Source: Corallium rubrum | Lineage: Eukaryota > Cnidaria > Anthozoa > Scleralcyonacea > Coralliidae | Length of the DNA stretch: 64,000 nucleotides | Direction: 5' to 3' | Assembly: GCA_964035015.1 (NCBI GenBank) | Contig: OZ035997.1 | Span: 16,895,463-16,959,462 of the forward strand | In this document: in pieces, positions 2,111 through 49,732 of the stretch | Numbering within the stretch: position 1 is the first letter of the stretch | How the letters are laid out: the number at the start of each line of letters is the position of its first letter | The notes under the pieces: model-generated | Databases searched by the model: none | What the model saw: the letters and a program-made list of their open reading frames with translations, nothing else | Told to the model about the DNA's origin: nothing | Made by a program: the position numbers and the translations under genes

Positions 2111-2115
2111 AGGAT

Positions 2116-2449
<334 letters not shown>

Positions 2450-2450
<1 letters not shown>

Positions 2451-3866
2451 AGTCGGAATTTCTTCAGTTGATAAACTGCTTTACAAGAAAGCCGAACTAA
2501 ACTTACAAAAGTTAAAAATTAATTATTAATTAATTAGAAGCATGATGTGAGGCCTCTTTTGAACTCATTGATGTTTTCACTACATTTTACATTTTCCGGC
2601 AAGTTGTTCCAAATTTTACATCCAGAATATGCAAAACTTTTTTTTTAAGAATTCAGTACGTGCTTGAGGTAAAACAAGACACAACTTTCTGTTTCGCAGG
2701 GAATATATATCATTAACGGTAGACATTTTAAAATGGTCTCGTAGATACGGAGGGGCCATGTTGTTTAACACTTTATACATCATAATTAACTTGTGCATAT
2801 CTCGTGTTTCCGTAAGATTTTTCCATTGTAATTGTTGTCTTATTTCATTAGATCTGACTTCATAACCTTGACAAGTAATCACTCTTGCTGCACGGTTTTG
2901 CAGCTTTTGCAGTCTGTGGGCTGTTGTCAAAGGCATATTGTCCCACACAACATCACAATAATCGAACAATGGTTGAATTAGTGACTTGTATATTGTAATT
3001 GAAGTTTGCTGAGGAACAAAACGTCTCACTTGTCGAAGACCTGAAATTGAAGCACTTACTTTTTTTGACATATTGTTGATATGATCTAACCATGATAATC
3101 TTTCATCTATATATACCCCTAGAGATTTGGTTACCCTAACTCGTTTTATAGGTTTACTGTCGAGATATAATAGCGGCATATCTCTTACCTTGTCAAGATT
3201 ATAGTCAGACCCAACAAACATGTACTCTGTTTTAGTTACGTTTAGACTGAGTTTATTTGCTTTTAGCCATTCACTAATATTTTCGAGATCTTTGTTGGCA
3301 AGAGTTATTATTTCTCGAATAGATGTTCCAGTAGTTGTTACGTTAGTATCGTCAGCATACATTCGAGCAGTGGAATATTGCAGACAATGTGGAAGATCAT
3401 TAATATAAATGAGAAATAATAATGGTCCAAGAATGGAACCTTGGGGAACGCCACAGTTAAGTGTGCGTTCTTTTGACAGAAAGCCGTTAACACAACATTT
3501 TTGTCTGCGATTGTGCAAATACGATTTGAACCAAGATAAAGTATTTGCATCAACTCCATAACTTTGGAGCTTACAGAGAAATATGTCATGGCTTACAGTG
3601 TCAAATGCCTTTGCTAAATCCAAATAAACTACAGAATTAAGAAGTCCCTGATCCATGTTTTTAAGCCAATCAGTTGTTGCATCTAGAAGTGTACTCGTAG
3701 TAGAGTGAAATGGCCTAAAGCCTGATTGTTTTTCATGCAATAAACTATTTTTATTGAGATACGTATATAACTGATCGTAAACAATACGATCAAAAACTTT
3801 AGATACGGCACTGAGTACAGAGATAGGTCTGTAATTGTTTACGTCGTCTTTAGCTTCGCTTTTATG
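2450..3866 (-). pseudogene. LINE fragment 2 (reverse transcriptase to 3' end)
   Basis: This is a related but distinct copy on the minus strand. It holds [76 protein letters not shown], the thumb/connection region (LSLNVTKTEYMFVGSDYN), and a C-terminal IYKSLIQPLFDYCDVVW and LQNRAARVI block, ending at 2616. Most of the reverse transcriptase domain is open. The 5' part is replaced by a GAGAGG microsatellite. Confidence 0.85.
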
Positions 3867-3870
3867 TATT

Positions 3871-4425
3871 GAGAGGAGAGGGAGAGAGGGAGAGAGGGAG
3901 AGAGGGAGAGAGGGAGAGAGGGAGAGAGGGAGAGAGGGAGAGAGGGAGAGAGGGAGAGAGGGAGAGAGGGAGAGAGGGAGAGAGGGAGAGAGGGAGAGAG
4001 GGAGAGAGGGAGAGAGGGAGAGAGGGAGAGAGGGAGAGAGGGAGAGAGGGAGAGAGGGAGAGAGGGAGAGAGGGAGAGAGGGAGAGAGGGAGAGAGGGAG
4101 AGAGGGAGAGAGGGAGAGAGGGAGAGGGGAGAGAGGGAGAGAGGGAGAGAGGGAGAGAGGGAGAGAGGGAGAGAGGGAGAGAGGGAGAGAGGGGAGAGGA
4201 GGGAGGGAGGAGGGAGAGAGGGAGGGAGGGAGAGAGGGAGGGAGAGGGAGAGAGGGAGGGAGGGAGGGAGGGAGGGAGGGAGGGAGGGAGGGAGGGAGGG
4301 AGGGAGGGAGGGAGGGAGGGAGGGAGGGAGGGAGGGAGGGAGGGAGGGAGGGAGGGAGAGAGGGAGAGAGGGAGAGAGGGAGAGAGGGAGAGAGGGAGAG
4401 AGGGAGAGAGGGAGAGAGGGAGAGA
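3871..4425. repeat. (GAGAGG)n / (GGGA)n microsatellite
   Basis: About 555 bp of GAGAGG with a GGGA-rich block at about 4200-4360. It joins LINE fragments 2 and 3. Confidence 0.97.
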
Positions 4426-4860
4426 TTGATTGATTGATTGATTGATTGATTCACTTTTATTTCAATACGGTAGTTTCATAAGTAGACACTTCTTTACATG
4501 AAAGCCGTATGACAATATGTACATATATATTAAATATTTTTACAAGTTTTATAAAATAAAAATATACAATAGATGAATATAAACAATTAAGATACACAAT
4601 GACAATTTTTCAAATCAGACAATTTGTTTTTAAAAGTAGTCAGTGATTGCGGTATTTTAAAATCGTGTGGAAGAGAATTCCACATTTGCACACCTCTATA
4701 CGAGAAGCTTCCCTTAAAACATTCAGTTTGGGGAGTTCGAGTTAATGCTAAATTTATTTCACTGTCCCTAAGTTTTGACCTGTAAGAAATATAATCTGAG
4801 CACTTAACAAAAAGGTCATTTAAATAACCAGGAACTTTATTATTTAGAGCTTTATAAAGA
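4426..4860 (-). pseudogene. LINE fragment 3 (3' terminus with (CAAT)n tail)
   Basis: Only the last 80-90 codons remain (NNKVPGYLNDLFV, then FSYRGVQMWNSLPHDFK, stop near 4587), followed by the 3' UTR and a short CAAT-type repeat (read as attg on the plus strand, 4426-4452). Short repeat tails are typical of CR1/L2-like LINEs. It is 5' truncated by a GA microsatellite at 4861. Confidence 0.75.
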
Positions 4861-8676: not shown

Positions 8677-11600
8677 TTATTGCATAAATTCCATCATTAT
8701 ACAGAAGAGAATACTGCAAAATACTGTTAAAACATATTTTGCCTCAGCATTCCAGTGCAACGAGTAACCCAAATCTTCAATGAAAGGTTCTACAAATAAT
8801 ATCAAAACGTTAGTTTTTCTTCTTAAAAAATATTAGATTTGTTATTTCGATGTTAATTTCATTAATTTATTGTCTAACTTGAATTTAGTATTATAATTTC
8901 AATTTACTAATGCATGTGATTGACAGATTCTTTAACGCTTACCAAAATGAATTTCACAGGATAAGTTGTACTGAGGTTGGATGATTTTCAGGCTAGCTTT
9001 CTGTTTGTTATTTTTCAGTAAAAATTGCTTTGCCTCGTTCCCCATCACCACATAATACGTTGTTTCTGTTCCAGAAGTAATTTCAAAAATAATTTTTGGG
9101 TTGTTGCCAGTGTACAGTAGTGATTGGAATCGAACGCCATTGTTTTGACAATTAAATCGGACATAATTATCGTCTACAAAAAGTAATTATAGTAAGAAAA
9201 TCAGTATTAGTAAAATGCTCAATTAAACTTTTGTTTGTACATAGCTTGCAAATTGAAGATGTGTTTTTTTCTTCCAAATCCTTCATTATAATTGGTTAGA
9301 AAGTTTGCGAGAATTCGCATTATTATACATTATCTTCGAATCCTAGTGGATTATAATTGGTGGGAAACTTGTACGAATTCTTGATATCTGCACTTTTAGT
9401 TGTATTTGCCGCTGTAATTGGTTGATTCTGAACACAGAATGCTATTATCTGTAGTTTCTGGAGGTATTATCTGTAGGAAAAAGGACTTATCATGCATGTG
9501 CTGACGTGACGCCACTGACAAGCTGGCAAAACAACTGTCTTTGAATTGCATTTTTTGGGGTTATGGGAGTGATTTTCTTTACATTTTCAACTGAAATGTA
9601 TAATAAAACAATTATTGAATTTGACTTTTTTTTTATATCAGATTATGTCTCAGACCGCATTATCAGCCTTCGTCTTCGGCTTCGGCAGATAAGTCATAAC
9701 ACAGACCTCGACCTTGATAATTCTTGATATCAACTGAAACTCTCATCCGATAATTGTTTATCATCTGCACATTTAGTCGTGTTTGCCGCTGTGATTGTCA
9801 GATTTTGAGCCCACAATGATATTATGTATAGGTTATTTTGAGGCCACGAGGGGATATGTGATTTATTCACCGAGGGCGAAGCCCAAGGTGAATAAACACA
9901 TATCACCGAGGGGCCTCAAAATGACGTACTTATTTTTCATATGGCGAGGTTGACAGGATTTCATAAAGAGTAGTGCGGGGGATATTAGACGGGAAGATTA
10001 GAGGAGAATATTATAGCGAGGAATGGTAGAGGGGAATATTAGTGCCTTAGATGGGAATATTAGAGGGGAATATTAATCATATCTACTGTTTTGCCAGGGG
10101 CTATTGAATATATTCCCCTAAAAGAACAAAGGAAACCAAGGCATTTGAAAAATAACTGTAGTTTCTGAAGGTATTATCTGTAGGGAAAAAGGCTTAATAT
10201 CATGCATGTGATGACGTGAAGCAAACTAAAGAAAAGGCCGGGCAAGATGCGACTGTCTTTGAATTGCGTTTTTAAACGTCTTTTTGGTTCTGATGGGAAT
10301 CAATGATTTTCTTTAAATATTCTTAAATATATAATAATTCAATGTTTTTGATATCAAAAATTATCAAGGTCTCAGACCAAATTATCAGCCAAGCTCAAAA
10401 AAGGCTAATCCAATAATTGTGATATGGACGACATCAATGTGTTGCTCTACATGTTTTGCTGAAAGATATAGCTACAATTTATCTCTGGTATGGGTCAGTT
10501 TCTACAATCGGCTCTTGTCGTAAAGACTATAACCGCACGATAGCTATATAGCAACACATTTATCGGCTAGAAGCAGTAATACACTAACGTGCGTTATTAA
10601 TAATTAGTTTTGCAGCTGTTTTATGATGCAGTTAAATGGTTGCTGTTTTGCCATAAAAAACGACATGTCTTTTTGTTCAGGTGAAATGGAAAGTCAAAAC
10701 AGCTTTGTATACTCTAAAGTGTTTAATGAAACAACTGATTAATTTGAGAAAGTTTTGTTTAGAAATTCTGCAGTTTACGAACTAGAAGCATTTAAACACG
10801 TTGGGAATTTTCGACAACATACTAAGATATTTTTCTTTTTTTACTTTGATACATTCATATTAAAAGGGGAAAATAATATAAGTTTCTTATCTACATGTAG
10901 CTTTATAATTATTCAAAGTGTTATTTCAATTAGCTCAAATTATGCAGTAGCCATTTTTTAGTTATAAAGAGAAGCGTTTACAAAGCGTATTTAATGACAA
11001 CTTGGTGCAATGTCACTTATGACGTCACAAGGCATTTTTGACAATGCTCATTTTGAATTGACAAAATTTCCAGTTAAATTGTGAAGAGAAATCTACAGAC
11101 AATTTGTTATGTTACATGGACAGAAAGACTGTTTAATTTTCCCCAAAAATCTTTTCCAACCACCTGTTATATCTTATCAATATAATATTTAAAAAAATAA
11201 AGATTTTTGCCACTGCGTTTTGGTCTTTTGGAAAGAGAGTGCAATGTTTCTTTATGTTAAGCTATTATGTTTAATATCGTTACTATCTTTTCTAATAGAT
11301 TTGTCACATTTATAAACGCTTAACCGATGTATTTAATATTCCACATTATAGTGACTTTTCTATAACATTTTGCTAGTTTTGATTCTACATGTATACGAAA
11401 AATTACGCTGAGCAAATTTGTGTAGTACTTTAAAACAATGGTTTAATGGTTTATAACGGCAAATAATTAGTTTGTCAACTTTCCTGCTTCGTCAAAGTTA
11501 ATGTTTGACTTTACTTACTTGATCGCACTTTAACTCCACAAGTACTTTCATTAGAGTCTGAAATTTCCATTTCAGTGATGTGAGTTTTGATTTGAATCAC

Positions 11601-12410
11601 ATTTTTATCACTTGTTAATATCAGTGTAGCGTTTCGAACTGTTGTAAAGAAAACTGCACATCGAGATAAACTTCCCTCTAGTAAAAAAGAGAAAGTAATA
11701 AAAATCATGGAAACCTTTCTTTTCTTTAAGCACTGAGATAGGTTTTTAACCCCTTGACTACCCTTGACGAGTAAAATGATCGTCTGGCGTTATAGCCAGA
11801 GTAAAATATTATATAGGTTCGTCTACATGCGTGAGTAGTCAAAGGGTTAAATCAGTATCTTAAAATATACTAGATGATGGAGGCAAACTATTCTTTTTTT
11901 CTACTTACCGTCCTTACCGAGTATTTTAAAACTAGTACTATAACAGTTATGTTGAAACTAATATTTACGACTCTTACCTATGGCTTTGACAATTAGCTTC
12001 TTGTTTTTTAAAGTACAAATCCTTTGTCTTTTGTCGCGAGACCTTGCTGAAAATGTCCCACTATCATTCAAAGTCAGATTGTAGATTGTTAGACCAACAA
12101 TTCCTTTTGATAAATCTCCGGTCCAAGCAATACGTTTAGATGATGATAAGTGCGGATTTCGGATAACACGTCTTTTTGACGGGAATATGGTAAGAAGTTT
12201 TGGGAAGATATCTTGATAATCTTCATTCCAAGGTCCAACACTTATTTTTTCTATGTTTTTAAGGACATCTATAGGATACTTCCAAACCATATTGATATCC
12301 TTATCCAAACTACCGTTAACTTGCAGCACATCTTTTACATTAGCTTTGCTACAAAGTAACGGAGTTACTAGAATGATGAAAATAAATAAATGAGGAATTA
12401 AAGTATACAT
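8677..12410 (-). CDS. Ig-superfamily surface protein, three Ig-like domains (gene B)
   Basis: Four minus-strand exons join in phase: 12410-11978, 11677-11519, 9173-8943, 8789-8677, giving 311 codons plus stop. Exon 1 encodes a signal peptide (MYTLIPHLFIFIILVTPLLC) and a V-set-like domain ending in an F-strand-like NDSGTFSAR. As in gene A, neither canonical cysteine is present. Exon 2 (residues 145-197) and exon 3 (198-274) are each phase 1 to phase 1 and each hold one Cys pair (SRCAVFF...STCGV and RFNCQNNG...NLSCEIHF), so they look like separate C2-type domains. Exon 4 ends in a hydrophobic stretch (YVLTVFCSILFCIMMEFM) with no cytoplasmic tail, which may be a GPI signal or a short membrane anchor; this exon is the least certain. 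No kinase exons follow, so it is not a second copy of gene A. The function is not known; adhesion or recognition is an inference. Confidence 0.68.
9260..10420. repeat. Duplicated noncoding block in gene B intron 2
   Basis: A segment containing TAGTTTCTGGAGGTATTATC and CATGCATGTG...TGACGTGA occurs at about 9450-9560 and again at about 10150-10220, and the detail following (CTGTCTTTGAATTGC) also repeats. A hairpin around CACCGAGGGCGAAGCCCAAGG lies at 9860-9895. At 9975-10080 a GGGAATATTAGA motif is repeated several times. All of it sits between gene B exons 3 and 2. Confidence 0.6.
10430..11500. other. Gene B intron, nothing recognised
   Basis: AT-rich intronic DNA with no element boundaries or coding signal that I can support. 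Confidence 0.5.
11750..11846. mobile_element. 97-bp MITE with TTAA target, gene B intron 1
   Basis: Terminal repeats CCCCTTGACTAC and GTAGTCAAAGGG, flanked by TTAA (11746-11749 and 11847-11850). The core CGTCTGGCGTTATAGCCAG is shared with the CTCATTCCTGTCC family near 19 kb. TTAA targets are typical of piggyBac/Kolobok-type elements. Confidence 0.8.
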
Positions 12411-22631: not shown

Positions 22632-23673
22632 CTAACCCGCTAGCAGGTCCTGGAACGACGTGCCCGCATATGATAAAAAGAGGAGGGCCGTGAAGGATGG
22701 CCCAAAGATGGTGGGTATAGAATGGCGCGAAAACGCGAATGTGGAGATGAAAATTGTCGGTACGGAGGTGAGAAATGGGCTAATATTCCGTAGTATTAGA
22801 TGTAAATTTTTTGGTAGAAGTTGTGGTCGCTGTTCAAGGTTCCTTAAACTGGATGCCGAGGGTCGTTCTTCTGGTTCAAAAGTGACACACGTCGAAAATG
22901 CCTCGTCGACAACACACAACTCCTTCATCCGTTGACGTTCGTATTTAGTTCCATGTTTTGGAATTATTTTATCCTTCAGGAACTTCTTGAGTGCGTCGAC
23001 AGATGGCTTGACTCCGACTTTCTTTAATTCGGGAAGGTATGGACCATCCACTTCTGCCTTCTGGATTGAGAAGGCAATACATTACCAGCCCAAATGCCCA
23101 GATGTCGGCCTTCTTCAATTCGTCCAGGTTGGCTTCTTTTAGCTTTCCCGAATGGATTTCTGGCGCTTGGTAAACTGGCGTACCACGGTCGACTCGTTTC
23201 GTTTGCGCTCGAACCAGGGTTTGCGTCTGAAGATACGTTGCCTTACTCTCGCCGAAATCCGCAAGTTTGGCTTGTACTGGAGACTACCCAAACTTTCTCG
23301 TTCGTTCACTCTCTGTCATCGACACTTCCGTGTAGTATTGGTTTGTCACCAAGATGTTGGACGGTTTGAGATCTCGATGAGAAACGTTCTTGTCGTGAAG
23401 ATAAACCAAACCTTCGGCGATATCTCGGGCGATGCAAACTTGCACTTTTTCGAAAGATTGGAAATCGAACTCTTCATCCGCGAACCGCAACAGATTGGAA
23501 AGGGAACTATTCCCTTCGCGATAATATGCGCAATATACGTTGCCGAAAGCGCCTGAACCAATTTCTTCTTTATTGGTGACATCCTTCCACGAAAATGTCG
23601 GGATGTCTAACGATAATCTACTATCTCGCTTAGAAAGCGAAGGCAATTTGAACACTGCCATAACACTGCACAC
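22632..23673 (-). pseudogene. Intronless serine/threonine kinase pseudogene inside a transposon
   Basis: An uninterrupted kinase-like reading runs on the minus strand: IGSGAFGNVY glycine loop, SHRDLKPSNILV catalytic loop, LADFGES, RGTPVYQAPEI, and KKADIWAFGLVMYCLL. HRDLKPSN marks it as Ser/Thr-type, unlike gene A. It is dead. An in-frame deletion joins the glycine loop directly to SSLSNLLRFADEEF, removing the VAVK lysine and alpha-C region. A TAG stop occurs near 23284, just before the DFG segment. A one-base insertion near 23065 shifts the frame before DGPYLPELKKVGV. The lack of introns suggests a retrocopy or a transposon-captured copy. What follows ASSLRNL is of uncertain coding status. 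Confidence 0.8.
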
Positions 23674-35397: not shown

Positions 35398-38300
35398 TTA
35401 ATTAAGTTGTACCTCGGTATCGTTCTCCAATCTCTCAAATATTAACTTAAAATCATTGAAGTTTGGGCGTCTGTCTGGATCACTTAACCAACATTCTTGC
35501 ATTACTGAGTACCTAAAAAAATAAAAACCGTGATAATCTAGAATGTATAAAAAAACTGGTTTAAACGCCAGAATATATCATGTGTTAATATTGTACCACA
35601 TTGGACTTACTGTTCCTGGTCACTATCATATATAATTATGCATGTCAGGTTATATAATCACAATATTCGTCACTTTCATAATTTATCCTGTATTTATTGT
35701 TACGATTTTGAATTGCTTAAGTGCGTAGCCCGGAACTTTGAATGAGTCTCGTGTATTTTGCTCTAGATAATCTACAAAAATAATCACTGGAGAAAGGATC
35801 AAGACTCACGTTGCCCTAACCCACATCTTCGTCTTCATCTATTCCTTACAAGCTAGCCAATTTTTCCTTACAAGCTATTCCTTATTTTACTGATCAGTTT
35901 ATCCAGACTCGTTTCATTATAGCAAAGCTAAGCATAACAATTGGTCCCGCTATATAAATATAATCAGATATAAAAAAATATTGTTACACACAGATATTTG
36001 TGGGGGGAAATTTTCCGCTAGCTTAACTGCCAATACTTCCTAAGTTGATGGTGTTTTTTTTATCGTATCTATTGTAATATTTTTGTGGATATACAGGGGG
36101 TTGCCAAAAAAAAGGAGCCCCCCTTTCCAAAACTAAAATAGACAAATAAAAGTCGTAATTCTTATTTTTTATTAGATAATGATAGGAAAAACACTCTGAC
36201 ATGATCAAAAATCCTTAATACTGTCCTAAGCACACAAAAGTTAATAGGCAATAGGATATCCACGGCTTTTGATAACTTTTCGACAGCGCCTTGGCATACT
36301 TTCTGCAAGTTTATGAAGGTAATCGTCGCTGAGATTCTCCCATGTCTGTTTCAAACACTGAAACAATTGTTCCTCACTTTGGCATGTACGTTTATTCAGT
36401 TTTCTGTTAAGCTCTGCCCACAAATTTTCAATTGGATTCAAGTCTGGGCTTTGTGGTGGCCAAAAAAGCAGTTCAATATGCTGATTCCTGAGATAATTTG
36501 TCACGACATTGGCTGTGTGTTTTGGATCATTGTCATGCTGAAAAATGAAGTTATCTCCGTGAAGTCGTCGGGCTGAAGGTCTCATTTGACTGATTAATAT
36601 TTGACGATATCTTTCTTTTGTTAATATTCCTTTTATTTGATGAAATGCTCCAACTCCCTTAAACGAGAAACATCCCCATACCCTAATTTTTTTCTGGTGC
36701 TTTAAAGTTCCTTGCAAACATCTAGGTGAAAACTGTTGCTTTCGAAGACGCCAGACATAAGATCGATTTTGGCGGCGGAGGACAAATGGTGATTCATCAG
36801 ACCAGACGACCTTCTTCCATTGACCGACTGTCCAGTGACGATAGCGTTTAGCAAATTTTAGCCGCTTACGCCGATTTACACTGCTCACAAAAGGTTTTCT
36901 TGTGTTGAGACACTTCTTATAATTCCTTTCATGAAGGCGGCGCTGCGCTGTTCGACGTGATATTTCGGTAGATGTGCGGTCTTTCAGTGACTCTGAGAGG
37001 TCAGCCGTGCTTGGACAGACATCGGAGGGATCACGTTGTCTCACAGCTTCTCTGATTAAAAACCGATCTTCTCGAACTGTTGTCTTTCGCGGTCGTCCAG
37101 ATCCAGGTTTTCTCTCTCCACTATCTCCTTTCCTCAAACGCGAACAGAGCTTCTTTGACCAGGAATAGCTGAGACCTCTCTCCTCCGCAGAGGCTTTGCG
37201 TGGATAATGAGGTTTAACATGAAGTAGCTACGTGCTACGAGGGAAAACCGCTAGTGGAAGAAACGTGGGCGTAAGGTCAGAGGCGTGCGGTGAACCCTGG
37301 GAAGACGGAAAACGAGAAAAGAAGCCTCTGCCAGATAATGTGCCGTTCTCTGGACAAATCCGCGGTTCTCTGGTCATGGCAGACAGCGACGATAGTTTGC
37401 ACGAAGTACATTGTTTTCTTCAAGATCTAAGGCTAGAATGTACTTCTGGATGTTATTCTGAATTTTTCTATGGAATCACCTGCCGAACGGGTCGAAAAAT
37501 TCGAAACGCTGCCAGACTGACAAACGTTTCATCGAACGTTGTCAACTGCCTGGAAGCTTTCCACTCCTGATTAAGTATTAACTTGATAAACAAAGCCGAC
37601 GAACAGCGCTAGAAATATTCTCGGTGCTAACTTTCTACGACATAATGGTAAGATCTATGTTTACAACAGTTCGTCCTTTGATGAATGATAAACTTTCTCA
37701 TGTAGCGTTTGTTTTATAATTTTATTTGCATAAATTCAAAACCGGAAAATCCTGTCCTTGTGTTGCAGTAACATTGTCGAGTTGAGAAGTATCAGCGATT
37801 TAAATGTGTCTTTTGTCCACAGTTTAGTGATTTCCGACTTTTGCGTAGTAGATTTGTTGATTATATAATGAAATCCCGAGTCTGGCGCCTAGTCCATCAC
37901 GGAATTTGGGCGCCATATTGACATTATCTGGCAGAGGCTCATTTTCTTTCCCTCTTCCCATCATTCCCCGCGCGTCTTCCCTCACCCGCACGCCTGCCCC
38001 TCCGAGCCTCTGCGGAGGAGAGAGAGCTGAGACCGTATTCGTCCGCCACTTGCCGAGCATTCCATCCAGCACGAAGAGAGCCCACAATCTGCTGATTTCT
38101 TGCAAACTTCTTCTTGGCCTTTTCTTCTTGTTGTTGTTTCTTAGTTGCCATATCTTCCAAACTGACTACAACGAAACTGAGAAAATTTCAACTTCTATTT
38201 GAATACGGAAATTGTGCGCAACGAATGTGGGATACTTGTTCGCACTTATACCGTTCTCGCGCATGTCCCTTTAGCCTTTTAACGTAAGAAACCCTCTTTT

Positions 38301-41300
38301 TCATGGCAGCTCCTTTTTTGGCAACCCCCTGTATTTTGCCCTGATTTCTGAATATCGTTTATAATTTTGAATGGACCCTATATAATTTTCTTCCTTTCTG
38401 AACTGGCCCAACAGCCTTCTGAACCAATCCTAGCAACCTTCAGTTGTATTGGCCCGCTGGAAGTTCCCCCAGTGGCCTTCCGCTACTGCCATATTCTCAT
38501 TATTTGTATTTTTATCATCGTCATCATCCACGTCTTAAGTTACGCTGTTCTCATCTATATTTCCTATCTCCACTTGTATTCCCATCCACATTTTCGTCAT
38601 ATCTACATTTATTCATCCTCGATTATTCACATCTTATCTGACATTAGTTCGTACTTATCTTCACTCTTATTCTTATCGTTCATATTATCTTTATTCTTAT
38701 TTTTACTGGCACAACCTTGTCCCAACTCCAACCCATCAATTTTTATTCTTACTCTTATTTCTATCTCCATAATAAAACAAAAAATAATACGTATACATCT
38801 TACAATTTATCGCTGATGATTGCGGGCCTTAACATTCTGTAGCCTCTTTCGAGTTTATTAACAAGATGGCGTGCGTCCATGTTAGGGTATGGTTCTTCAC
38901 CTCAAGAAAGAAAAAGTATATTCCTTAAAGGACGTTGGCAATAAAAATTAAGTTCGTCTAATTTGAAAGAACTCGTCAAATTGTAATTGAAAATCGTTTA
39001 TAACTTTTTGTATTTTTCTTCGTTTTCAATATATTCCAGTTTGTTTGATATGAAAATTAGATGATCTCTGACGCCAGGAGCAGGGTAAGTATTTTCACAC
39101 CTAGCAAAATCAATTATATCTCTAAGTTTGTTTAACGGAATAACTTGAAACTGTGCACATAAAAACGCCTTGTGACACTAAACATTTTGTTTTGAGCAAT
39201 CATAGATGTATAAGTGATTTTGTAATGTATAAAATAATAAAAATAATGTACCCTGCTCCTGACGTCAGAGATCATCTAATTTACATATCAAACAAACTGA
39301 AATATTTTAAAAACGAAGAAAAAGTTGTAAAAGTTCAAATGTGACAAACGTCATTTTTTATTACCAATGTCCTTTAACATAAACTTAAATTAGTTACTTA
39401 TTCTTCTTTGGCGTTTTAGTTCTAAGTAACGCCCAAACACTTGATGGAAGTCTCTCCATAAGGGGTAGACTTGATTTCCAGCACTATTGATTGCCATTTT
39501 GAGCTTATGAGATAATTTATGCAATAACCCCAATCATCCCTATAATGTTTGCCTGCTGAAAATGTGCAGGCTCGTTTGCGATTGGTGCAAATCAACAATA
39601 GACAAGCTCACAAGTCCAGCCGTGATATTCGGGGAGGTGAATGCCAGGGCCCGAGATACGGCCCGAAATCGAGCCTGCGTAAGTTATAGGGGTAAAAGCT
39701 TCAGTACAGTTCAATAAAATGTTTACCAAAAGTAAATATCTCAAACAGGACTATACCATAACTCCATCTGCAATACATAAAAAAAGGAATTTGTTACGAT
39801 ATTAATTATTTCCTTAAAGACTATACTACAAAAGTATTGTAACTGACCAACCGCAACGTGACTGTGGGGTCAAATCTACTGTTTGCACTCCTGGCAAATT
39901 GTATCAAGGCAATTAAAAACCAAAAATTTTAATATGTTTCTCCTTAACGTAATGCTTTTGCTCAAAACGGCGTTAGACTTTCTTTATGAGTATTTCAGTA
40001 GTACACAAACTTTTTAACATAAATTTTTAGTTTCTACACTGCCTATACGAAGCCATTAACTTTTATAAACTATGTGATAAAGTCGCCCTAAGCTTAGAAC
40101 TCTGCATGTGACATATGATATAGTAGTGATAAAGTTATGAAGTTTACGGCTTGAAAAAGGTTTATGTTAATGGAAACAACACTTTAATTTAATTTAATTC
40201 CTTTTAATTATTAAAGTACTCTGGATTAGTTTAGTTTAATCGCACTGCATTATAACACTTCAACTACTTCACTTATTGTCTTCTTGATAATTAGTATTAT
40301 ATAGCAAATTCGATATGAAATTAAACTAAAGACAAAATAAAATAGAACTGGTTAAAGTGCCTATGAAACAAAAATTAAGTTTGTCTTATTTAAAAGAACA
40401 CTTAAAATGATAGAGAAACATATTTTGCAGTTTTTGGTTTCCTTGCTTCGTTTTCGAGATATTTCAGTTTGTTTGATATGTAAATATGATAACTTTACGT
40501 CAATCTTTGCATAATGACTTATCGCAAAAGATTATAAATCTCCGTTATTGCCAAACAAAAACACTTAAAATTTACACAGACTCTGCTCAACACTCACACA
40601 TGGTTCCTAATTCACCAAGTGCTTTTGTTCAAACTGTGACGTAACTTTATCTTATAAGTCAAATTTACATATCAAACAAACTGAAATATCTCAAAAACGA
40701 ACTAAGGAAACGAAAATCTACAAAATGTGTTATATTATCATTTTAAGCGTTCTTTCAAATAAGACAAACTTAATTTTCGTTTCATAAGCACTTTACTTTT
40801 TGCTTTTATATTTGTTCGGGAAAAAGTTGGGGTAATTTGCGGTTCCCCAATTAATAAAGATTTGTTTTTAATTTAATTTACTTACACATCGCTTTTGGTT
40901 GTGTAAATGTCGTAAAGAAGTCCTTCAATCGAAGTCCATTTGACTGGAATTTTTCCCTATTTTATCATGATTTTTTGAATTAAAGAAAAGAAAAAAAGTT
41001 TATAAAAAGAAAAGTTAATGTGAGTCAAAGATAATTGCATAATTATTTTAACTATATTTATTATTTTGGTATCATATTGCCTACAATACAACTCGCTCTC
41101 ACTTTTCTATATAAACGGCAGCATGCAACTTCTCCTCGTTGTCAGTTTAACACGTAATATTTCATGCTCAACCTCATTAATAATTCATGAAGAAAACACA
41201 ATGGAAATCCGTTACCGACCAACGGTTTACAACTTGTTGGTAAATGTGGTAATAAACTCCCATAAATTAGTAAGACAACTTTTACCTCAATTTCTCTTTA

Positions 41301-44300
41301 AATTTACAGATTCGTTTAAGAAGCTATATGCCAAACACACAAAATCCTGACTCTTTCCTGTCCAAATCGGTCTTTTGTATTTTATTCTGACTAACGCCAG
41401 ACGATTTTACTCACCTCACATGGGGAAGCCCTCGCACAGGAATGAGTTAAACTATAACTATATTTATACTGGATGACCCTATCAGTTATATCTAAACTGT
41501 TATCCCTAGAGGCCAAGTAAGGGTCATCCCTCATTAGTTCAGTGTTACTACAGGAGGAAATCGGAGTACCCAGTGAAAATTTGTGATGTTTTGTAGAGTG
41601 AAACTAGAAGCATTTTTCTCATGCGCGGCCAAGGTGAAATTTTCCGTCATATATAACTGCTGAGAGCAAGAATCGAACCCGGGTCGCAGAGGTGAAAGGC
41701 ACGTGATTTGAAAACATCGAGACCTTAGTGTGTTCTCAAGTCTTCTCAACGACCTCTCGTGTATGAAATATTATATACATCAAACATGAAAAAATGTTTG
41801 GTTTCATGATCAAACACCAACAAGTGTGTTAAAAACACAAGGCTAACTTCGAAATACATGCATGTTTTCATATCACATCAAACACAACTTTCGATTGTCT
41901 AATATTGCCAGTTTCAAATTGAATCAGTATTTTAAGGAAATTTAAGGTAAAAGTTGGCTTAATTTAATTTATGTATTGGTGTTTGATCACATATCCAAAC
42001 TACTTCTCAGCATTTATTAATACTGATTTACTTTGTTTTTATCTTATAAATTATAAATAATGAGATTGGGAACAATAAATAGAATACCCAAAATCGTTGT
42101 TTTACTGTTAATTAACCTATGCACTGCCACAGTATACCGATATATTATTATACCTTTGATCTCCGCATATAAGGCTCTTGGGCAGTTGTATGTCGTGCAA
42201 ATCCAAAATCAGTCACTTTGCAAGTGTTATCCTTTGAGAGCAAAACATTCCGTGCAGCTAAATCGCGATGAACCACCTGAAGGGAAATGAAAAACCGATT
42301 TAACACATCTCTGTTCGAAGGTTTTCCCAGAGAAATATAAAATTGTCAGGGGTAAACAAGAATTTAAATCCAATTTGGACACAATCTGGCTCCGTCACCT
42401 GCTCCAGGAATCTTTGGTACTAGCTAAAAGCTAGCTGATACCTATATTTTCTGTTTAATTTCTTGTTTAATATTGCGCACGTAAATAATCTAAAAAGACA
42501 CAAATAAAACCCTCCGAAATCGCCCTTACATTGCTCAAGCTGCTGTTACACGATGCCACTTTTCTTGCAACTTGCAGAAATTTTACCCATTGAAAAAAAC
42601 TCGCAAGTTACCTAGAGGGGGGTTTGCACGCCGACATATTTTCCTCGAATATGTAATCGTCGAAGTGGTCCGCCAATGTTGTTTATTCCAAGGAGCGTTT
42701 GACCCCAGTCTCGAGTGCGGGCGCTATTCTGAAGTTCTCACACCTGATTGGTTAGCATGGAAAATAACTTACGTTGTGTTGCGACAGGAAGTCCATTGCG
42801 TTTGCTATTTCTTGTGCAAAAGTAAACAAATCTGCCAATTGGATTTTCTTTGACGTACGAAGTTTGCAACTGTTACGAGTTTCTCGATTCTTTCGTAGAA
42901 ATGTTAATAAATCACCATGTTGTGCAAATTCTGTCACCACCAAAAACGCACCTAATAGTTGTTACGTACAGTAGTGTAGATTATTAAACAAGCATTTTAG
43001 TTAAAACGATAGCTGCTGTTAGTTAATTCTGGTTTACTTATCAATTTTTTTACTCATTTATATATAATTTCTTTTAGGTCTTTTTTAGTTTGTAGTCGTT
43101 AATAAACATTAGAATTGTGTTTGGTGTGTGATTTCATCCTTGACGTTTTATTTGATTATTTGATCAGCAACTTTTTTTGTATCAGTTTTACCCATAGTTA
43201 AATATGTATATTTTTAGATTTAATTCTATCTATACGTGCTATTAATATATTTTAACTTTTTTTGTGTGAGTGTATATATGTATTTAAATAACATGGGACA
43301 GGTTTGTAAGTATTATCATATTATTATCTACTAAACTAGCACATCAATATTACAATTCTTAAATAAAATACCTGGTTGTTTGACACATCCAAGTAATGTT
43401 ATTACATTAGCGTGCCAAGGAAGTGATTTCATTACATTAAATTCTTGCTCCAAATCTGTTGTATTTTGCGTGTTTTGGTGCTCTCCTAAAAATTACAAGG
43501 AGCAATGTAAAGGTAATTATTTGTGCTTTTTAGAATCATACGACACGACAACACACAAAAAAGTTATAAAAAAACGAAAACACACAAAAATGTTATAATT
43601 AAACTAATGTAAATTATTACATAATTTGATTTCGACCTTTTAGGGACGTTATATAAGCAAATTTGCATCGCACATTAAACAGTGCATAATCAAAAATTTA
43701 CCGCGACCACTTCATCAACTGTTTCCGCGTTGAGTGTTGATAAACACTCAACGCGGAAAAAGGAATTTTTTTTTTTAAATTAGACAAAGCAAAACTGGCC
43801 GCCATTTTGTTCTGTATATGATGGGCAAAATACTTGAAAACTAAAAACCAATCAGATTGCATGAAAAGTACTATTATTTTTTAAACAAAGTAAAACTAGT
43901 CGTCACTTTGTTTTGTTTGGTGTGCAAGATCAGTTTAAGATTAAATAGCTGACTAGTCATATTGCATGTAAAGCACTACTTACTTGCGACGTATATATGA
44001 TAAACTAAATATAAAATGTCTCACCTTGTATTTTTTTAACGGCAACAAATATTAATTTACCATTTTGATCAACAAGTACACCTTTAGTGACTACGCCAAA
44101 CTCCCCACAACCAATAACATTTAAGAGACGTAGTTTCTTAGAATCTATTACCCATAGATCAGGTACGTCGTAAATACTTTCGGGCTGCTAGTCATAAAGC
44201 AATAAATCAATTATAGATCATATCTCGTGCATTCTACGATGAAAGTATCAAGTATATGCATGGAAATTATAATGATAAAATCATGAAAATAACATGTATT

Positions 44301-47300
44301 TAGGGGATTTTAAGATAAAAAATAATTAACCAAGTTCTGTATGGACCATCTTTACTAAATTAGTCAAACATATTTTAATTGATACAACAGAACATAAGAT
44401 TATAGATAGAATTGGGATATTAATTGGACATGGAATGCACCTTCCTAGAAAATTGCATTATATTATAAAATATTTACAATTATATATTAATATAAACCTA
44501 TTAGACATTCTTTTCCAAATGTTAAGTATACTTACTTGTAAATTAAGCTCAATTTCGTGATTTTTGGTGTTAATAGTCCTAAATATCAACGATATCTTCT
44601 ATTATATGTGTGGTAAACTTCACAGCGTCTAACAAATTATGTTGAAGTGCCTTGATAGTACCCAATTTTGTTTTACGCTCATTTTGATAAATAAAAAATA
44701 ATATTTAAATATTAAAATAATAATAATAATAATAATAACAATTTTTTTTTTATTTAAAAGATTTAGTATAAATGAATACACTAGGTATACAAACAAAAGG
44801 ACATGGGGATCCCCTACAAAGTTTGACACCTGTAACCCAACCCATAATAAAAATTTAAACCCTACCCCAATATGCCCATATGAATAACAGAATAGGTACT
44901 ACCTGATACAATAATGGGAAAAAAAAACACGGTATTAACACGAGCACAAAGTGAAAGTGTTAGGATGACGACACAATAATAGTAATATTAAAATATTTAT
45001 GATTAATTAAACCTAAACGTTTATATTAGAAACTGTTTCATTATACTAAGCGTATATAGTTTTATACGGACCATGCAGCCGGTAATAAGGCTGGCACAGC
45101 TAGTAGGGATATAGCTCCACCACTTTTTTGGACTGCTTGTTTCAGCGAAATATTTTCTGAATACGTTCAATAAATCACTTGCACGTACGTTTTAATTAGC
45201 AAAACTGCAAAACGCGTTTTTTTGTGTTTCTGATTCGTTTATAAATTAACAACATATCTAGGCTACAAATAGAAACTTACATGTAGCTATGGTCTGACGA
45301 TTCACCTTCATTTGTAGTCCTCATCCTGTTTGCTTCATGTTCCTGACAGTCCTGTTGGTTAAATCTCTTTATTATTCCTACTAGAAATCGAGGGAAAATA
45401 AGCTTAATTTAAAGAGAATATATAGATAACATTTTTCTATAAAAAACTGCGCAAACTAAATTCTTTGTTTACTGCGGGAGCAATAAGAGTGTTTATAAAA
45501 TATTTTTGAAATTTATTTGCTCGTTCCGACTAATTTATCTTATACATGGATTTTATTTTTTAACCATCCAGCAGGAATTACGATTAAATAACCAAAAACA
45601 ATCAAATTCAAAACAGAAAATTGTCCAAACAAGTTTCAGTCAACCGGGAATTTTTACATTATATGCATGGTGCAATGGTACAATATCAATAGTAACATCA
45701 CACTTGACATGGTTTTCCAAAGCACTTGAATCAAGTGCCATTTTAAATTTGACAGGATTTCCAATTACAAAAACATTAATTTCAATCAAATCTTCAAGAA
45801 ATTTTTCCTTAGAAATTTTCTCAGTGGATTACACTATTGTCTAGTTTAATAAAATTAAAAAAACAACTTTTCAAGTAGCAAATGCACCACAGGCCATTAA
45901 AATAAATTATCACACATGTTATAGATTTTAGTAAAGAATGTAAACAGGGCCGCCGAGAAGGGTGGCTAGGAGGGTAAGTTGCCCCAGGCCCCCAACTTGA
46001 GAAGGGCCCCCTAAATTTTTTGAGATTTTTTGAGAGTTTTTGACGTAAGAAAACATGAGTCTCAGAAATCGTAAAGGTCAGTAACACTAACTTCATTTTT
46101 AGACAACCCAGGGGACCAGGGGACATAGACACGACCCTATGACGTGTGACGTTTATCAGGGCCCCCCAAATCGAACCACGTGACGTCATCAGGAGCCCAT
46201 TTCTTTTTAAATTTTGAAGTAACATAATCAGTTTATCCGTTTACAATCTCACTGAATAGTAGACACCGAAAAACTTACGGTATTTAATAAGCAATATCGT
46301 GGAAATGATAAAGCCAAAGGCAACTGCGGCTGACCCAATGACGATAAAAATAACTTTAACGTCGTTCTTTGTGTATATTTGATTCTTTCTAATTGGCCAG
46401 CCCCCCAGAATTTCGATTTCATTTAGAGTACTGTTCTGTAAAAACAAAACTGAAAAGACAGAATAATTAAACTTGTGTACCGCAATCATGTTTGTTTGGG
46501 GTTTTTTCTTTTAATTAAACCAGCTTTCATGCATATTGTTATTGTATATACAATAACAAATTAGATATCTTTTATCTATCTAGAACAAAAAAAACAAAAA
46601 AAAACAAAAAAAATACTCTATTTTAACCGTTTTGTGCAAAACGTTTCTACCAACGTTGTAATTTAGTATAAATTAAACGTTGCATACATGATTAATTTTA
46701 ATTCTTACGCAACAGTGTAATTGTTCTATGCTAATTTCTAGAATCAAAATAGCGAAAGTTTGTATATTTCATCTGAACTTTTACCTTGACTGGAGGAGCC
46801 ACATATTTTGGTTGAAAGGACAATCTTTGCATTCATTGATGTTGTGAATATTTTTTCCACTGTGACTCTTGTTGCAAAACCTGTCGTAGTAACCGTGGAT
46901 GATTTAGGTATGACAGGTGATGAAAAAATAATAAATGGGCTTGAAGATCGACCTTGAAAAAGATTTAATGTTTCTGTTAACTGACAGCTTTCCGGTTTTA
47001 ACGAAACTCTTCATCAAGATTTCAAATAAGAGCAGGGTTTTTGTCAGGATTCTCAAGATGGAAAGAGTCGTGCATTTATAATACCAGAGTGTTCTACCCA
47101 TAACATGCAAAGACGTATAGTCCCATAGGGTAGAGATGGTTTGTTACGAGACAAGTTGCCTAAAGCATTTTAAAGACTTTAAGACCCCGTTTACACGATA
47201 CCGGTACAATTTGAAAACGAAACAAAATCATGCTGGTATGCAAATACAGCATATAACATTTCATGTTATTTTTGTGCCAGTATCGTGTAAACGCAAGGCC

Positions 47301-49732
47301 TAAACGGCATGATTTTGTTCCGTTTTCAAATTGTACCGGCATCGTGTAAATGGGGTCTAAAAGAGTAATCATAACGCTGTTCTCGTTCTCTATACACTAC
47401 GCCACTCAGAGCATTTCCACACGACGTCAATGGCCAAAAAGATGAGAACTGCTGCTTGCAATTGAGACTGACTTCGATACGGACACTGGATCATTTTAGC
47501 AATACTGAGGCGTTTTGGAAGTCACCAAACTAGCTTCAAAAATCTTCAATAAAATAATAGTCAGATATTTTTATAAAATAATTCTTTAAATTGTAAAATT
47601 TATATATGTTGCTTCTTAACCGTCGTCGTCGTCCTAGCATTTTGAAGTCCCTTATATATAATGTAAGTAATATCAGTAACATACGGTGCAATAGTCAAAA
47701 TCGTTACAACACACGTTGCTGCAACCGTTGAATAAAGTAAAATCGAGTTTTATTCTGCAAAGATAGGATGCTGCACGCGGTACAACGGTTTGTGCAACTT
47801 ATCTTGCAACAATTATGCAGGGCCTTTCATTAGGTATAAGCAAAGTTATAATCTTTAAAAAAACCAACATTTACATGAAATCAAATAATTAGAAAGTATA
47901 TTACAAATAAAATACAGAATTTTCCTTATGATAAAAAATGTTTTCTCGTGATGTTAATTTGGGAGAGGAAACGTGTGCTTATATATATTTAAACAGATAT
48001 ATCATTTGCGGTGCGGCCGAAACATATATATTTAATTTCACTCTGTCCCCTTCGGCACATGCACGAGTGTAATTGTCCGCCTCGCCAGGACTCCTGCCTT
48101 TAGGCCCCGGCAGCACTTCCACCTGAGCTATTGGGAACAATAAAATAAAGTGTAGACCTTATTCATAAATGATGCCTAATTTAGTATTCTTTAAGATTTT
48201 TAGTGAAAGAAAATTTTGAGTGTATATATTCAATATTCTTTTAAATACATGTAATTTAGCCCCTCTATTTGCACTCAAACGGAGCTAAACGGGTCTATCT
48301 ATATGCATATCAACAACATGCAGTTTAGTCGAGTAAAATGGTAGAGGCGACCTCTTGGAAAGTCCTGTATATTCTTGGTTTGCACTTGACGTCATGGCGG
48401 CCATGTTGCATGGAAGAACTTTAACAAAAGAATTTCATTATAGCAGCTATTGTATTTGGAGTATGTTTTCCTCCAACATGGCCGCCGTATTGATCTTTGT
48501 CTTCTAAATCTCAAGGGATTGATTGCAAACGGCACCAATAGTAGTTAATAAGGGCCGAAGAGTTTCGTTTTTGAATGACTGATTTCGAAACGCGTCATAA
48601 TTTAATATACTCTTTAACACGCTGAAACCAAAATTAAAAGCTTCTTACTTTTTAAAACCCATGCCATCTATTTTGTTTTAACTGAAAGATGTTTTGTTTC
48701 AAACATGTCAGTTTAAAGTAAGATCGTCTAATTATAACCTCAGGAATAGTGGACAGAACTTTGAACAAGCACGTCGTAATACATTGTATTTACAAAACTC
48801 TCTTTCCTACATATATTGTTAGTCATGTATGGAATGAACTCTCCTTGCATATTAAAAACTCAGAATCTTTGGCTACTTTTAGAAACAGCATAACTAATTT
48901 GGATTTTACCAACAAAATTAATCTTGGTTGTAAGTGCATGCTTGTACTTGAGTTTTTTATAATTTTCTGCATAGTTTTACTTATGCTTTTTGTATTATAA
49001 TAGATAACTATACCTTTTAAAAATTTTATTGCAAAATAGTAATTTATATTAATTGTTGCATTTTTAATGGCTCGGGGGACACCGACATTTTTTAATTACT
49101 CGTCTTCGTATCACACACTTTGATGCCCATGCATCTAGTAATACTAAAATATACTGAGGTAATCGCATTATACGTACCAATATCTTTGTCTTCCTTTTTC
49201 ACTTTCACAAGAATCTTGTGAAATAGATTATCGTATGGATATATCCCAACTTTGATCATGTAATATCCAGCATCATTGTACCTTATGTCTTTAATAACAA
49301 GAGTAGCCACATAAAGCGCTTCAATTCTCCAACCAAACATCAATTCAGCTTCAGGTGTAATGTTAAACGCTTTTTGTGACTGCTGAAGGTCTCTGTAAGC
49401 CAGTAGGATCTTTTTATTAAAATCATCAAATTTGTAAAACATGACATAATTAAATTCCGCATCTTGGTTTCGTCTTGTAAAATTCCATGTCAAATTCAAA
49501 TAATCTCCAAAAGTAGCATTTAAGACGTCCTTTGGCTTTTTGCTAAATTCTTCAGTTCCTATATCACAATGAAATTATTGTCTAAAAATAGAATAAACAT
49601 ATTCGGTTACATACGTTCACTTGCATACTTACGGGTAGCCAATACAGGTGTTTGAAGCATGAACATAGCGCTTAAAGTTAAAAACCCTAATGTCAATGTC
49701 AGTCTAAACACACACGTCGACATGGTGAACAT
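35398..49732 (-). CDS. Receptor tyrosine kinase with one cysteine-less Ig-like domain (gene A)
   Basis: Fifteen minus-strand exons join in frame to 602 codons plus stop: 49732-49633, 49558-49178, 46880-46785, 46737-46709, 46435-46279, 45380-45281, 44578-44536, 44187-44025, 43485-43372, 42951-42773, 42276-42154, 40956-40886, 39767-39727, 38900-38804, 35512-35398. Every junction has AG/GT and matching phase. Order: signal peptide (about 1-32), Ig-like domain (36-158), short stalk with Cys187/201/202, transmembrane helix (about 230-252), juxtamembrane region, tyrosine kinase (about 320-600). Kinase motifs are intact: GCGEFG loop (328-333), VAVK Lys353, alpha-C Glu371, HRDLAARN (457-464), DFG (477-479) and one activation-loop Tyr490. 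Tyr308 in IYDVP is a plausible SH2 site. The kinase resembles the FGFR/VEGFR/PDGFR/RET group (family knowledge). Introns 10-14 are loaded with transposons. The last exon could instead splice at a GAG/GTACAA donor to another tail; a poly(A) signal lies at 35224-35229. The ligand is unknown. Confidence 0.88.
36241..38160 (-). pseudogene. Tc1-type DD34E transposase split by a MITE
   Basis: The helix-turn-helix N-terminus (38160-38025, with ARNQQIVGSLRAGWNARQV) and the remainder (37166-36241) are separated only by an insertion and its 9-bp duplication. Taken together without the insertion the two parts have matching frame and about 353 codons, near the usual Tc1 length. The catalytic triad is present: VVWSDES, FQHDNDPKHT, and SPDLNPIENLW, with 34 residues between the second Asp and the Glu. 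No other disabling change was seen, so the insertion is probably what inactivated it. Confidence 0.88.
37176..38024. mobile_element. Mutator-like MITE (849 bp) inside the Tc1 transposase
   Basis: Terminal repeats CTCTCTCCTCCGCAGAGGC are perfect at both ends and are flanked by the 9-bp duplication AGCTGAGAC (37167-37175 and 38025-38033). A 9-bp duplication is typical of Mutator-like elements. The interior has partially matching inverted segments (a GCAGAGGC/ATTATCTGGCAGAGG block near each end). No transposase frame was seen. Confidence 0.82.
38804..44187 (-). CDS. Gene A kinase-domain exons 8-14
   Basis: Seven exons encode most of the catalytic domain. 44187-44025 holds the glycine loop and VAVK lysine. 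43485-43372 holds the alpha-C glutamate. 42951-42773 holds the hinge (VVTEFAQHGDLLTFL) and a short basic kinase insert. 42276-42154 holds HRDLAARN and DFG. 40956-40886 holds the P+1 loop (KIPVKWTSIEG). 39767-39727 encodes WSYGIVLFEIFTFG. 38900-38804 encodes EEPYPNMDARHLV and RGYRM. The final YSVMQECWLSDPDRRPNF block is at 35512-35398. Nothing expected for an active kinase is missing. Confidence 0.88.
38929..39373. mobile_element. TTAA-target hairpin MITE abutting gene A exon 14
   Basis: AGGACGTTGGCAATAAAAAT and inverse, flanked by TTAA (38925-38928, 39374-39377). The arms share AGTTTGTTTGATATG with the element at 40356. Its edge lies only about 28 bp from the 3' splice site of exon 38900-38804. 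Confidence 0.85.
40356..40792. mobile_element. TTAA-target hairpin MITE in gene A intron 12
   Basis: AGTGCCTATGAAACAAAAAT and inverse; left flank TTAA, right flank TTAC. Same family as 38929-39373 by internal TCAGTTTGTTTGATATG arms. It sits about 90 bp past the exon 12 donor. Confidence 0.8.
41351..41448. mobile_element. CTCATTCCTGTCC-family MITE, inverted copy in gene A intron
   Basis: Reverse orientation of the 19-kb family, with AACGCCAGACGATTTTAC core. Right flank TTAA. Confidence 0.75.
41530..41755 (-). mobile_element. tRNA-derived SINE
   Basis: The minus strand carries a box-B-like GGGTTCGATTC (41670-41680 region) preceded by CACTAAGGTCTCGATG, followed by an unrelated body. It lies inside the gene A intron between exons 11 and 12. 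The box-B match is strong, box A weaker. Confidence 0.55.
43723..43757. repeat. Short perfect palindrome
   Basis: TTCCGCGTTGAGTGTT, four-base loop GATA, then the exact inverse. It sits in the gene A intron between the glycine-loop exon and the alpha-C exon. Function unknown. Confidence 0.8.
45948..46225. mobile_element. Truncated hAT-like MITE in gene A intron
   Basis: It begins CAGGGCCGCCGAGAAG like the 16714 and 33542 elements and carries the same GGGCCCCC and TTTTTTGAGA features, but no matching right end was found. Confidence 0.55.
46279..46435 (-). CDS. Gene A transmembrane exon
   Basis: The exon encodes an extracellular linker, then a run of about 23 hydrophobic residues (VIFIVIGSAAVAFGFIIST and following) ended by a basic stop-transfer KYR. 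It has a TTTTACAG acceptor and a GTAAGT donor, with phase 0 in and phase 1 out. This fixes the receptor as a single-pass type I membrane protein. Confidence 0.85.
46709..46737 (-). CDS. Gene A microexon (29 nt) in the stalk
   Basis: This 29-nt exon lies between TTCTAG and GTAAGA, entering in phase 1 and leaving in phase 0. Without it the flanking exons are out of phase, because the upstream exon ends in phase 1 while the transmembrane exon reads only in phase 0. It encodes EISIEQLHCC, ending in a Cys pair just outside the membrane. The call rests on phase logic and splice sites. Confidence 0.65.
47183..47357. mobile_element. Harbinger-like MITE, 175 bp, in gene A intron 2
   Basis: GACCCCGTTTACAC and GTGTAAATGGGGTC, flanked by TAA. 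Short relative of 34790-35189. Confidence 0.8.
47400..48745. other. Gene A intron 2, mostly unremarkable
   Basis: A tRNA-like SINE head (minus, about 48060-48132) has AGCTCAGGTGG and a shortened box B. A CATGGCGGCCATGTTG / CAACATGGCCGCC inverted pair lies at 48390-48490. No further exon was found. Confidence 0.5.
48749..48950 (+). pseudogene. LINE 3' remnant
   Basis: The open stretch reads VWNELSLHIKNSESLATFRN, the same C-terminal signature as LINE fragment 3 (MWNSLPHDFK...SLTTFKN), here on the plus strand. Only the last part of the ORF survives, in the long second intron of gene A. Confidence 0.6.
49178..49558 (-). CDS. Gene A exon 2: V-set-like Ig domain without cysteines
   Basis: One phase-1 to phase-1 exon of 381 nt carries the whole domain. 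A B-strand-like LNLTW, a C-strand-like FNYVMFYK, an ATLVIKDI E strand and a DAGYYMIKV F strand give the V-set pattern. There is no cysteine anywhere in the exon: the F-strand position expected to be Cys is occupied by Met/Ile. N-glycosylation sequons are present (NAT, NLT, NFT, NIT). The domain is bounded by AG before GAACTG and by a GGTACGT donor. Confidence 0.85.
49633..49732 (-). CDS. Gene A exon 1: signal peptide
   Basis: This first coding exon encodes a hydrophobic leader ending near LQTPVLA, a good signal-peptidase site, and is followed by a GTAAGT donor. Two ATGs lie three codons apart (49732 and 49723); the first is used here, and either gives a working leader. It exits in phase 1, matching the next exon. 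Confidence 0.8.

Follow-up and report, generated by a model that had tools for sequence, protein, structure and literature searches.

Among receptor tyrosine kinases, FGFR carries two or three immunoglobulin (Ig) domains plus an acid box, RET has cadherin-like and Cys-rich modules, and TIE is built of Ig, EGF and FN3 modules. An early-animal receptor tyrosine kinase, that of the sponge Geodia cydonium, has two Ig-like domains and was once proposed to act in recognition. The CEACAM, SLAM and Alr systems rely on separate enzymes for signalling, and no Alr protein is known to carry a kinase of its own. VEGFR combines seven Ig domains with a split kinase (passages of PMC10328876), and the V-domains of CEACAM proteins take part in trans binding (passages of PMC4057559 and PMC8013792). 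In Hydractinia, the Alr genes form a cluster and encode transmembrane Ig-superfamily proteins whose domains are V-set-like (passages of PMC11067881 and PMC11999971). The titles listed in the literature searched, which was not directed at octocorals and included few subscription papers, showed no cnidarian receptor kinase with a Cys-free V-set domain, and we make no claim that such a receptor is absent from print.

The gene described here lies in a window of 64,000 nt from the octocoral Corallium rubrum (OZ035997.1, positions 16,895,463 to 16,959,462), which is part of a 96-Mb contig (C1) in the searched genome of 474 Mb and 312 contigs. Positions given without a contig name are those of the window. 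The gene model supports the original prediction of a compact receptor kinase with a single Cys-free Ig domain, and this combination is an unusual one built of parts that each have a precedent.

The kinase was compared with the PDB. Among the best 60 of 2462 matches, a tandem EGFR construct scored 325 bits over two stretches (ca. 161 bits each), and the per-domain scores were 221 for RET, 207 for TIE2, 203 for FGFR3, 195 for PDGFRA, 194 for CSF1R and 192 for KIT. RET and TIE were thus the best single-domain matches, and the coral kinase has RET-like features (WxxIE after the activation loop and YxxRS(K/Q)G); however, the ectodomain modules of RET and TIE were not seen in the coral receptor using Pfam. 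The receptor resembles VEGFR, PDGFR and KIT in its Ig ectodomain, one transmembrane helix and related kinase; it differs from them in having a single Ig domain in place of five or seven, and a kinase with a short insert where theirs is split. It is similar to FGFR in having an Ig ectodomain and a kinase without a long insert, but its ectodomain consists of one V-set-like domain with no acidic run. The Geodia receptor can be likened to it by description (an Ig-like ectodomain and a kinase), although with two Ig domains rather than one. By these comparisons, the coral receptor appears to sit in the RET/TIE/FGFR/PDGFR superclade and to belong to no single class.

Gene model and kinase

Fifteen exons were rebuilt on the minus strand (49732–35398) with AG/GT borders and consistent phases. 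The resulting reading frame of 1,881 nt including the stop codon has no internal stops and encodes 626 amino acids in the order signal peptide, one Ig-like exon, stalk, one transmembrane helix and complete tyrosine kinase. The phase-consistent 15-exon model proposed earlier was therefore borne out, and the receptor tyrosine kinase gene is real and intact. Exon 1 (49633–49732) contains the start codon and the signal peptide, which is hydrophobic from residue 8. It is followed by exon 2 (49178–49558), encoding the Cys-free putative V-set Ig domain with core sites Trp58, Phe74 and Ile135, and by exon 3 (46785–46952), encoding a Ser/Thr-rich stalk with Cys211. Exon 4 (46709–46737) is a micro-exon of 29 nt that carries Cys225 and Cys226 and is not forced. 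The membrane-proximal segment and the transmembrane helix are encoded by exon 5 (46279–46435), and the juxtamembrane region by exon 6 (45281–45380), which extends up to Tyr311, and the 43-nt exon 7 (44536–44578). Exon 8 (44025–44187) carries Tyr332 (YDVP), the glycine loop and the catalytic Lys377. The rest of the kinase is divided among exon 9 (43372–43485; Glu395), exon 10 (42773–42951; hinge and short insert), exon 11 (42154–42276; HRD Asp483, DFG Asp501 and activation-loop Tyr514), exon 12 (40886–40956; KWTSIEG segment, preceded by a pyrimidine-poor acceptor), exon 13 (39727–39767; DVWSYG segment), exon 14 (38804–38900; C-lobe) and exon 15 (35398–35512), which contains the kinase end, a short Tyr-less tail and the stop codon. 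The last intron contains an open Tc1-type transposase frame of 328 amino acids (36241–37227, minus strand; DDE_3 E = 6e-20).

Several splice choices affect the ectodomain. An in-frame acceptor at 46449 (pyrimidines at 13 of 17 positions), 14 nt upstream of exon 5, provides a second way of joining exon 3 to exon 5; its use would remove Cys225 and Cys226 and leave one stalk Cys. The cysteines of the model are at positions 7 (signal peptide), 211, 225 and 226, and those from 290 onwards are intracellular. Because the acceptor bypasses exon 4 in frame, the earlier claim of three stalk cysteines is conditional: all three are present in the 15-exon model, but two of them depend on the unforced micro-exon, and the suggestion that they mediate dimerisation is weakened to the same extent. 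In contrast to exon 4, exon 7 appears to be needed, since its omission breaks the frame, and no alternative in-frame join around it was found among the splice sites examined. Exons 2 and 3 can each be skipped with the frame kept; Ig-less transcripts could therefore be produced by omission of exon 2. The acceptor of exon 12 has pyrimidines at 4 of 17 positions, and the weakest donors, those of exons 4 and 13, match 3 of 7 consensus positions.

A strict Ig E–F strand (F-strand) motif was scanned against 207,980 six-frame residues from the window and 40 kb of flank. Only two matches were obtained, both in Ig exons (exon 2 and a gene 37 kb away). The 2.2-kb intron at 46953–49177, where additional conventional Ig exons would have overturned the original prediction, contained no Ig exon among minus-strand ORFs of at least 35 amino acids judged by eye, in agreement with the motif scan.

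The kinase matched the Pfam profile at E = 8.9e-83, so chance is not an issue, and residues 346–610 corresponded to profile positions 2–254 with about a dozen extra residues. The catalytic residues were identified as Lys377, Glu395, HRD Asp483 and DFG Asp501, confirming those given previously as Lys353, Glu371, Asp459 and Asp477 in a numbering 24 lower. The protein thus has the signal peptide, single transmembrane helix and Lys/Glu/HRD/DFG residues of a receptor tyrosine kinase. Apart from sub-threshold noise, Pfam found only the kinase and a weak V-set match. Tyr514 aligned opposite the RET activation-loop Tyr. Tyr311 (YMTI) and Tyr332 (YDVP) are candidate docking sites on the cytoplasmic side, and the C-terminal tail contains no Tyr. 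YDxP motifs are known to attract the SH2 domains of CRK and NCK.

The receptor kinase of this octocoral is best explained as single-copy; of 69 matches listed by the genome kinase search, none outside the receptor gene exceeded 60% over an exon. A kinase cluster on contig C25, considered as close kin (49%–60% in one exon with the same exon start), was rejected after inspection by eye as Eph-like with SAM-like exons. At least two tandem Eph-like receptor genes with FN3-like and SAM-like exons were present at C25:5070001–5110000, and further matches of the same kinase exon at C25:4.3–4.8 Mb suggested an expansion. The match with the best E-value elsewhere in the genome (C53:4.53 Mb, 40%) reads as a Src-type SH2-kinase and was likewise set aside. 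Several kinase ORFs also recurred across the genome at identical scores (for example, five share E = 4.4e-19 and four share 2.2e-26), a pattern that would fit spread by a mobile element. Within the window, a broken protein-kinase copy with an internal stop was found at 22632–23673 (minus strand; Pkinase E = 1.2e-12 on one piece).

The Cys-free domain and linked V-set exons

Exon 2 alone matched the last 39 positions of the Pfam V-set profile at E = 0.0088, with 16.7 bits (17 bits for the trimmed exon) against a curated cut-off of 26 bits, and the match was weaker within the whole 626-residue protein (E = 0.14). The exon was absent among the matches listed in a genome-wide V-set search in which 150 of 300 candidates were scored, and a PDB sequence search with exon 2 alone returned nothing at E ≤ 10. 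AlphaFold2 models of exon 2 alone and with the domain of the neighbouring gene described below had pLDDT values of 54.9 and 61.6, respectively, and Foldseek searches of both low-confidence models against the PDB gave no match at E ≤ 0.001. Models of this quality are too poor to be informative on the fold and are no proof of a non-Ig fold.

More informative was a third exon located 97 kb from exon 2 (C1:16847811–16847422, minus strand). Its V-set match spans nearly the whole profile and passes the cut-off (E = 1.7e-6, 28.6 bits). Exon 2 aligned with it end to end at a score of 68, whereas the best shuffle reached 58 and none of 5000 shuffles attained the observed score, linking exon 2 by homology to an accepted V-set domain. 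A fourth exon (C1:16803419–16803054, minus strand) was 44% identical to the third and matched V-set at E = 0.0075. When exon 2 was compared by profile with these two exons, E was 0.0014 but the probability just 17.5%. Support for the V-set nature of exon 2 thus comes from its alignment with an unambiguous V-set exon, not from predicted structures. The C1:16.847 Mb exon was also considered as part of a second receptor kinase, and no kinase exon was found within ca. 14 kb downstream.

The remaining member of this group belongs to an unannotated Ig-superfamily gene 37 kb downstream of the receptor, with phase-1 introns and four exons on the minus strand (12410–11978, 11677–11519, 9173–8943 and 8789–8677; window 8677–12410). 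The encoded protein of 311 amino acids begins with a signal peptide, and its C-terminus is hydrophobic, lacks a cytoplasmic tail and resembles a GPI signal. Its first domain is Cys-poor and V-set-like (V-set E = 0.0039; TIM-3 E = 0.00094); Trp replaces its B-strand Cys, and its F strand lacks Cys. Direct homology between this domain and exon 2 was not significant (657 of 5000 and 269 of 2000 shuffles), and the Trp and motif that they have in common are regarded as a lead only. Genome searches with exon 2, the neighbour's domain and the third and fourth exons detected no further relatives apart from one broken match at E = 1.45.

Exon 2 contains no Cys in translation, as originally predicted, and therefore lacks the B–F disulfide that is usual in Ig domains although not defining. 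A profile of the four exons matched TIM-3 in the PDB at E = 2.8e-7, and the profile searches listed TIM-3, PD-L1 and CEACAM as well as VEGFR1. In the alignment to TIM-3, Trp58 occupies the B-strand Cys site and Ile135 the F-strand Cys site, and Phe74 stands at the usual C-strand Trp (alignments read by eye). All four exons have Trp at the B-strand Cys of TIM-3, and Ile, Ala, Leu and Leu are found at the F-strand Cys; in the third and fourth exons, a Cys follows three residues after the Trp (WTYC and WTFC). A small control of 12 readable V-set matches (of 13 chosen) from two other hand-picked places in the genome, read by eye, retained the F-strand Cys in all 12 and the B-strand Cys in six, and none had Trp at the B site. 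The six without the B-strand Cys all came from one place (C20) that is titin/obscurin-like in appearance. Because four exons share the Trp-for-Cys feature and no control match has it, it seems uncommon for this genome but is not a one-off. What appears to be new here is a set of four V-set-like exons, confined to 142 kb of a single strand of C1 (C1:16.80, 16.85 and 16.91 Mb, plus exon 2), that have Trp in place of the B-strand Cys and no Cys at the F-strand site.

The absence of the disulfide has precedents among receptors and adhesion molecules. The statement in the original prediction that Ig-type receptor tyrosine kinases rely on disulfide-bonded Ig domains proved too strong, given that the F strand of VEGFR1 in the stretch DAGNYTILLS, which we take to be domain 4, is Cys-free, as in exon 2. 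The B–F disulfide is also absent from domain 4 of KIT, PDGFR and CSF1R, and the canonical disulfide from the first domains of CD2 and SLAM. The CEACAM N-domain and the CD2 and SLAM first domains are, like exon 2, V-set domains without the canonical disulfide, and they act in cell–cell contact. The F strand of CEACAM1/6 (DTGFYTLQV) is Cys-free as in exon 2, and SLAMF5 was listed weakly in profile searches (E = 0.0094 and 0.024). The CEACAM and VEGFR1 stretches score ca. 10 bits and were used for their letters only; as such scores are not significant alone, no kinship with CEACAM is claimed. Moreover, CEACAM, CD2 and SLAM proteins usually have further C2-type Ig domains and no kinase, and Trp at the B site is a feature of the coral domains.

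Proposed function and alternative explanations

We propose, at about an even level of confidence, that the gene encodes a contact receptor kinase whose V-domain works like that of CEACAM or SLAM proteins. The domain would fold without a disulfide, like its N-terminal counterparts in CEACAM, CD2 and SLAM proteins, and might bind a membrane-bound Ig partner on the adjoining cell; candidates are the receptor itself and products of the linked V-set genes, among them the GPI-tailed protein encoded 37 kb downstream. Contact could then cluster the receptor, possibly from dimers pre-formed through one or more stalk cysteines, and the clustered kinases would phosphorylate each other at Tyr514. SH2 adaptors may be recruited at the juxtamembrane Tyr311 (YMTI) and Tyr332 (YDVP), where docking is placed because the C-terminal tail has no Tyr. 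The Cys-free V-set exons grouped on the same strand lend circumstantial support to the earlier suggestion of a recognition receptor.

A less probable but realistic alternative is that the gene encodes a growth-factor receptor. It would then be a member of the RET/TIE/FGFR/PDGFR superclade that is specific to this lineage, has a reduced ectodomain and uses the Ig domain or the stalk to bind a diffusible ligand. The per-domain kinase scores, which are best against RET, TIE2, FGFR3 and PDGFRA (221, 207, 203 and 195 bits), are consistent with this, and Ig-bearing receptor tyrosine kinases with known ligands mostly bind soluble factors. However, the V-set domain resembles V-domains of adhesion and immune receptors (TIM-3, PD-L1 and CEACAM), although VEGFR1 was listed too, and exon 2 sits in a same-strand group of V-set exons. 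A further alternative is that the gene model is materially incomplete or alternatively spliced, with extra exons or the omission of exon 2 or 4 altering the ectodomain. We consider this unlikely: exons 2 and 3 can each be skipped in frame and the acceptor at 46449 bypasses exon 4, but no further strict Ig motif was present in the window and 40 kb of flank, and the 15-exon frame is unbroken. Finally, the receptor may no longer work, its cysteines having been lost by drift in a decaying gene. The transposase ORF inside the last intron would fit such decay; nevertheless, 626 codons without a stop or frameshift, the preserved AG/GT borders and catalytic residues, and a Trp common to three other exons, which neutral decay would not give, make it very improbable.

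A broader form of the contact-receptor reading, which we regard as unlikely, is that the four-exon stretch forms part of an octocoral self/non-self recognition complex built on disulfide-free V-domains, with this kinase as its signalling arm. V-set proteins encoded by the linked genes, whether GPI-anchored or transmembrane, would trigger the kinase from the opposing cell. The clustering of the coral V-set genes resembles the Hydractinia complex as described in passages of PMC11067881. If the V-domain does bind members of the linked group, recognition and kinase signalling would be joined in one polypeptide. Such binding would further suggest that cnidarians have a family of disulfide-free V-domains with Trp in place of Cys, and this family could provide a handle for finding octocoral recognition genes. 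Even if merely a growth-factor receptor, the protein would be a minimal Ig receptor kinase useful for studies of ectodomain assembly.

Other features of the assembly were also noted. Reverse-transcriptase-like ORFs (YADD, by eye) lie beside long AG-rich simple repeats on the minus strand of the window (297–4475). The small contig C129 held ten of the 11 COX1 matches together with six to MutS; a mitochondrial MutS is not known outside octocorals, in keeping with the octocoral origin of the DNA. The copies on C129 run in both orientations, which would fit a mitochondrial genome assembled as a concatemer.
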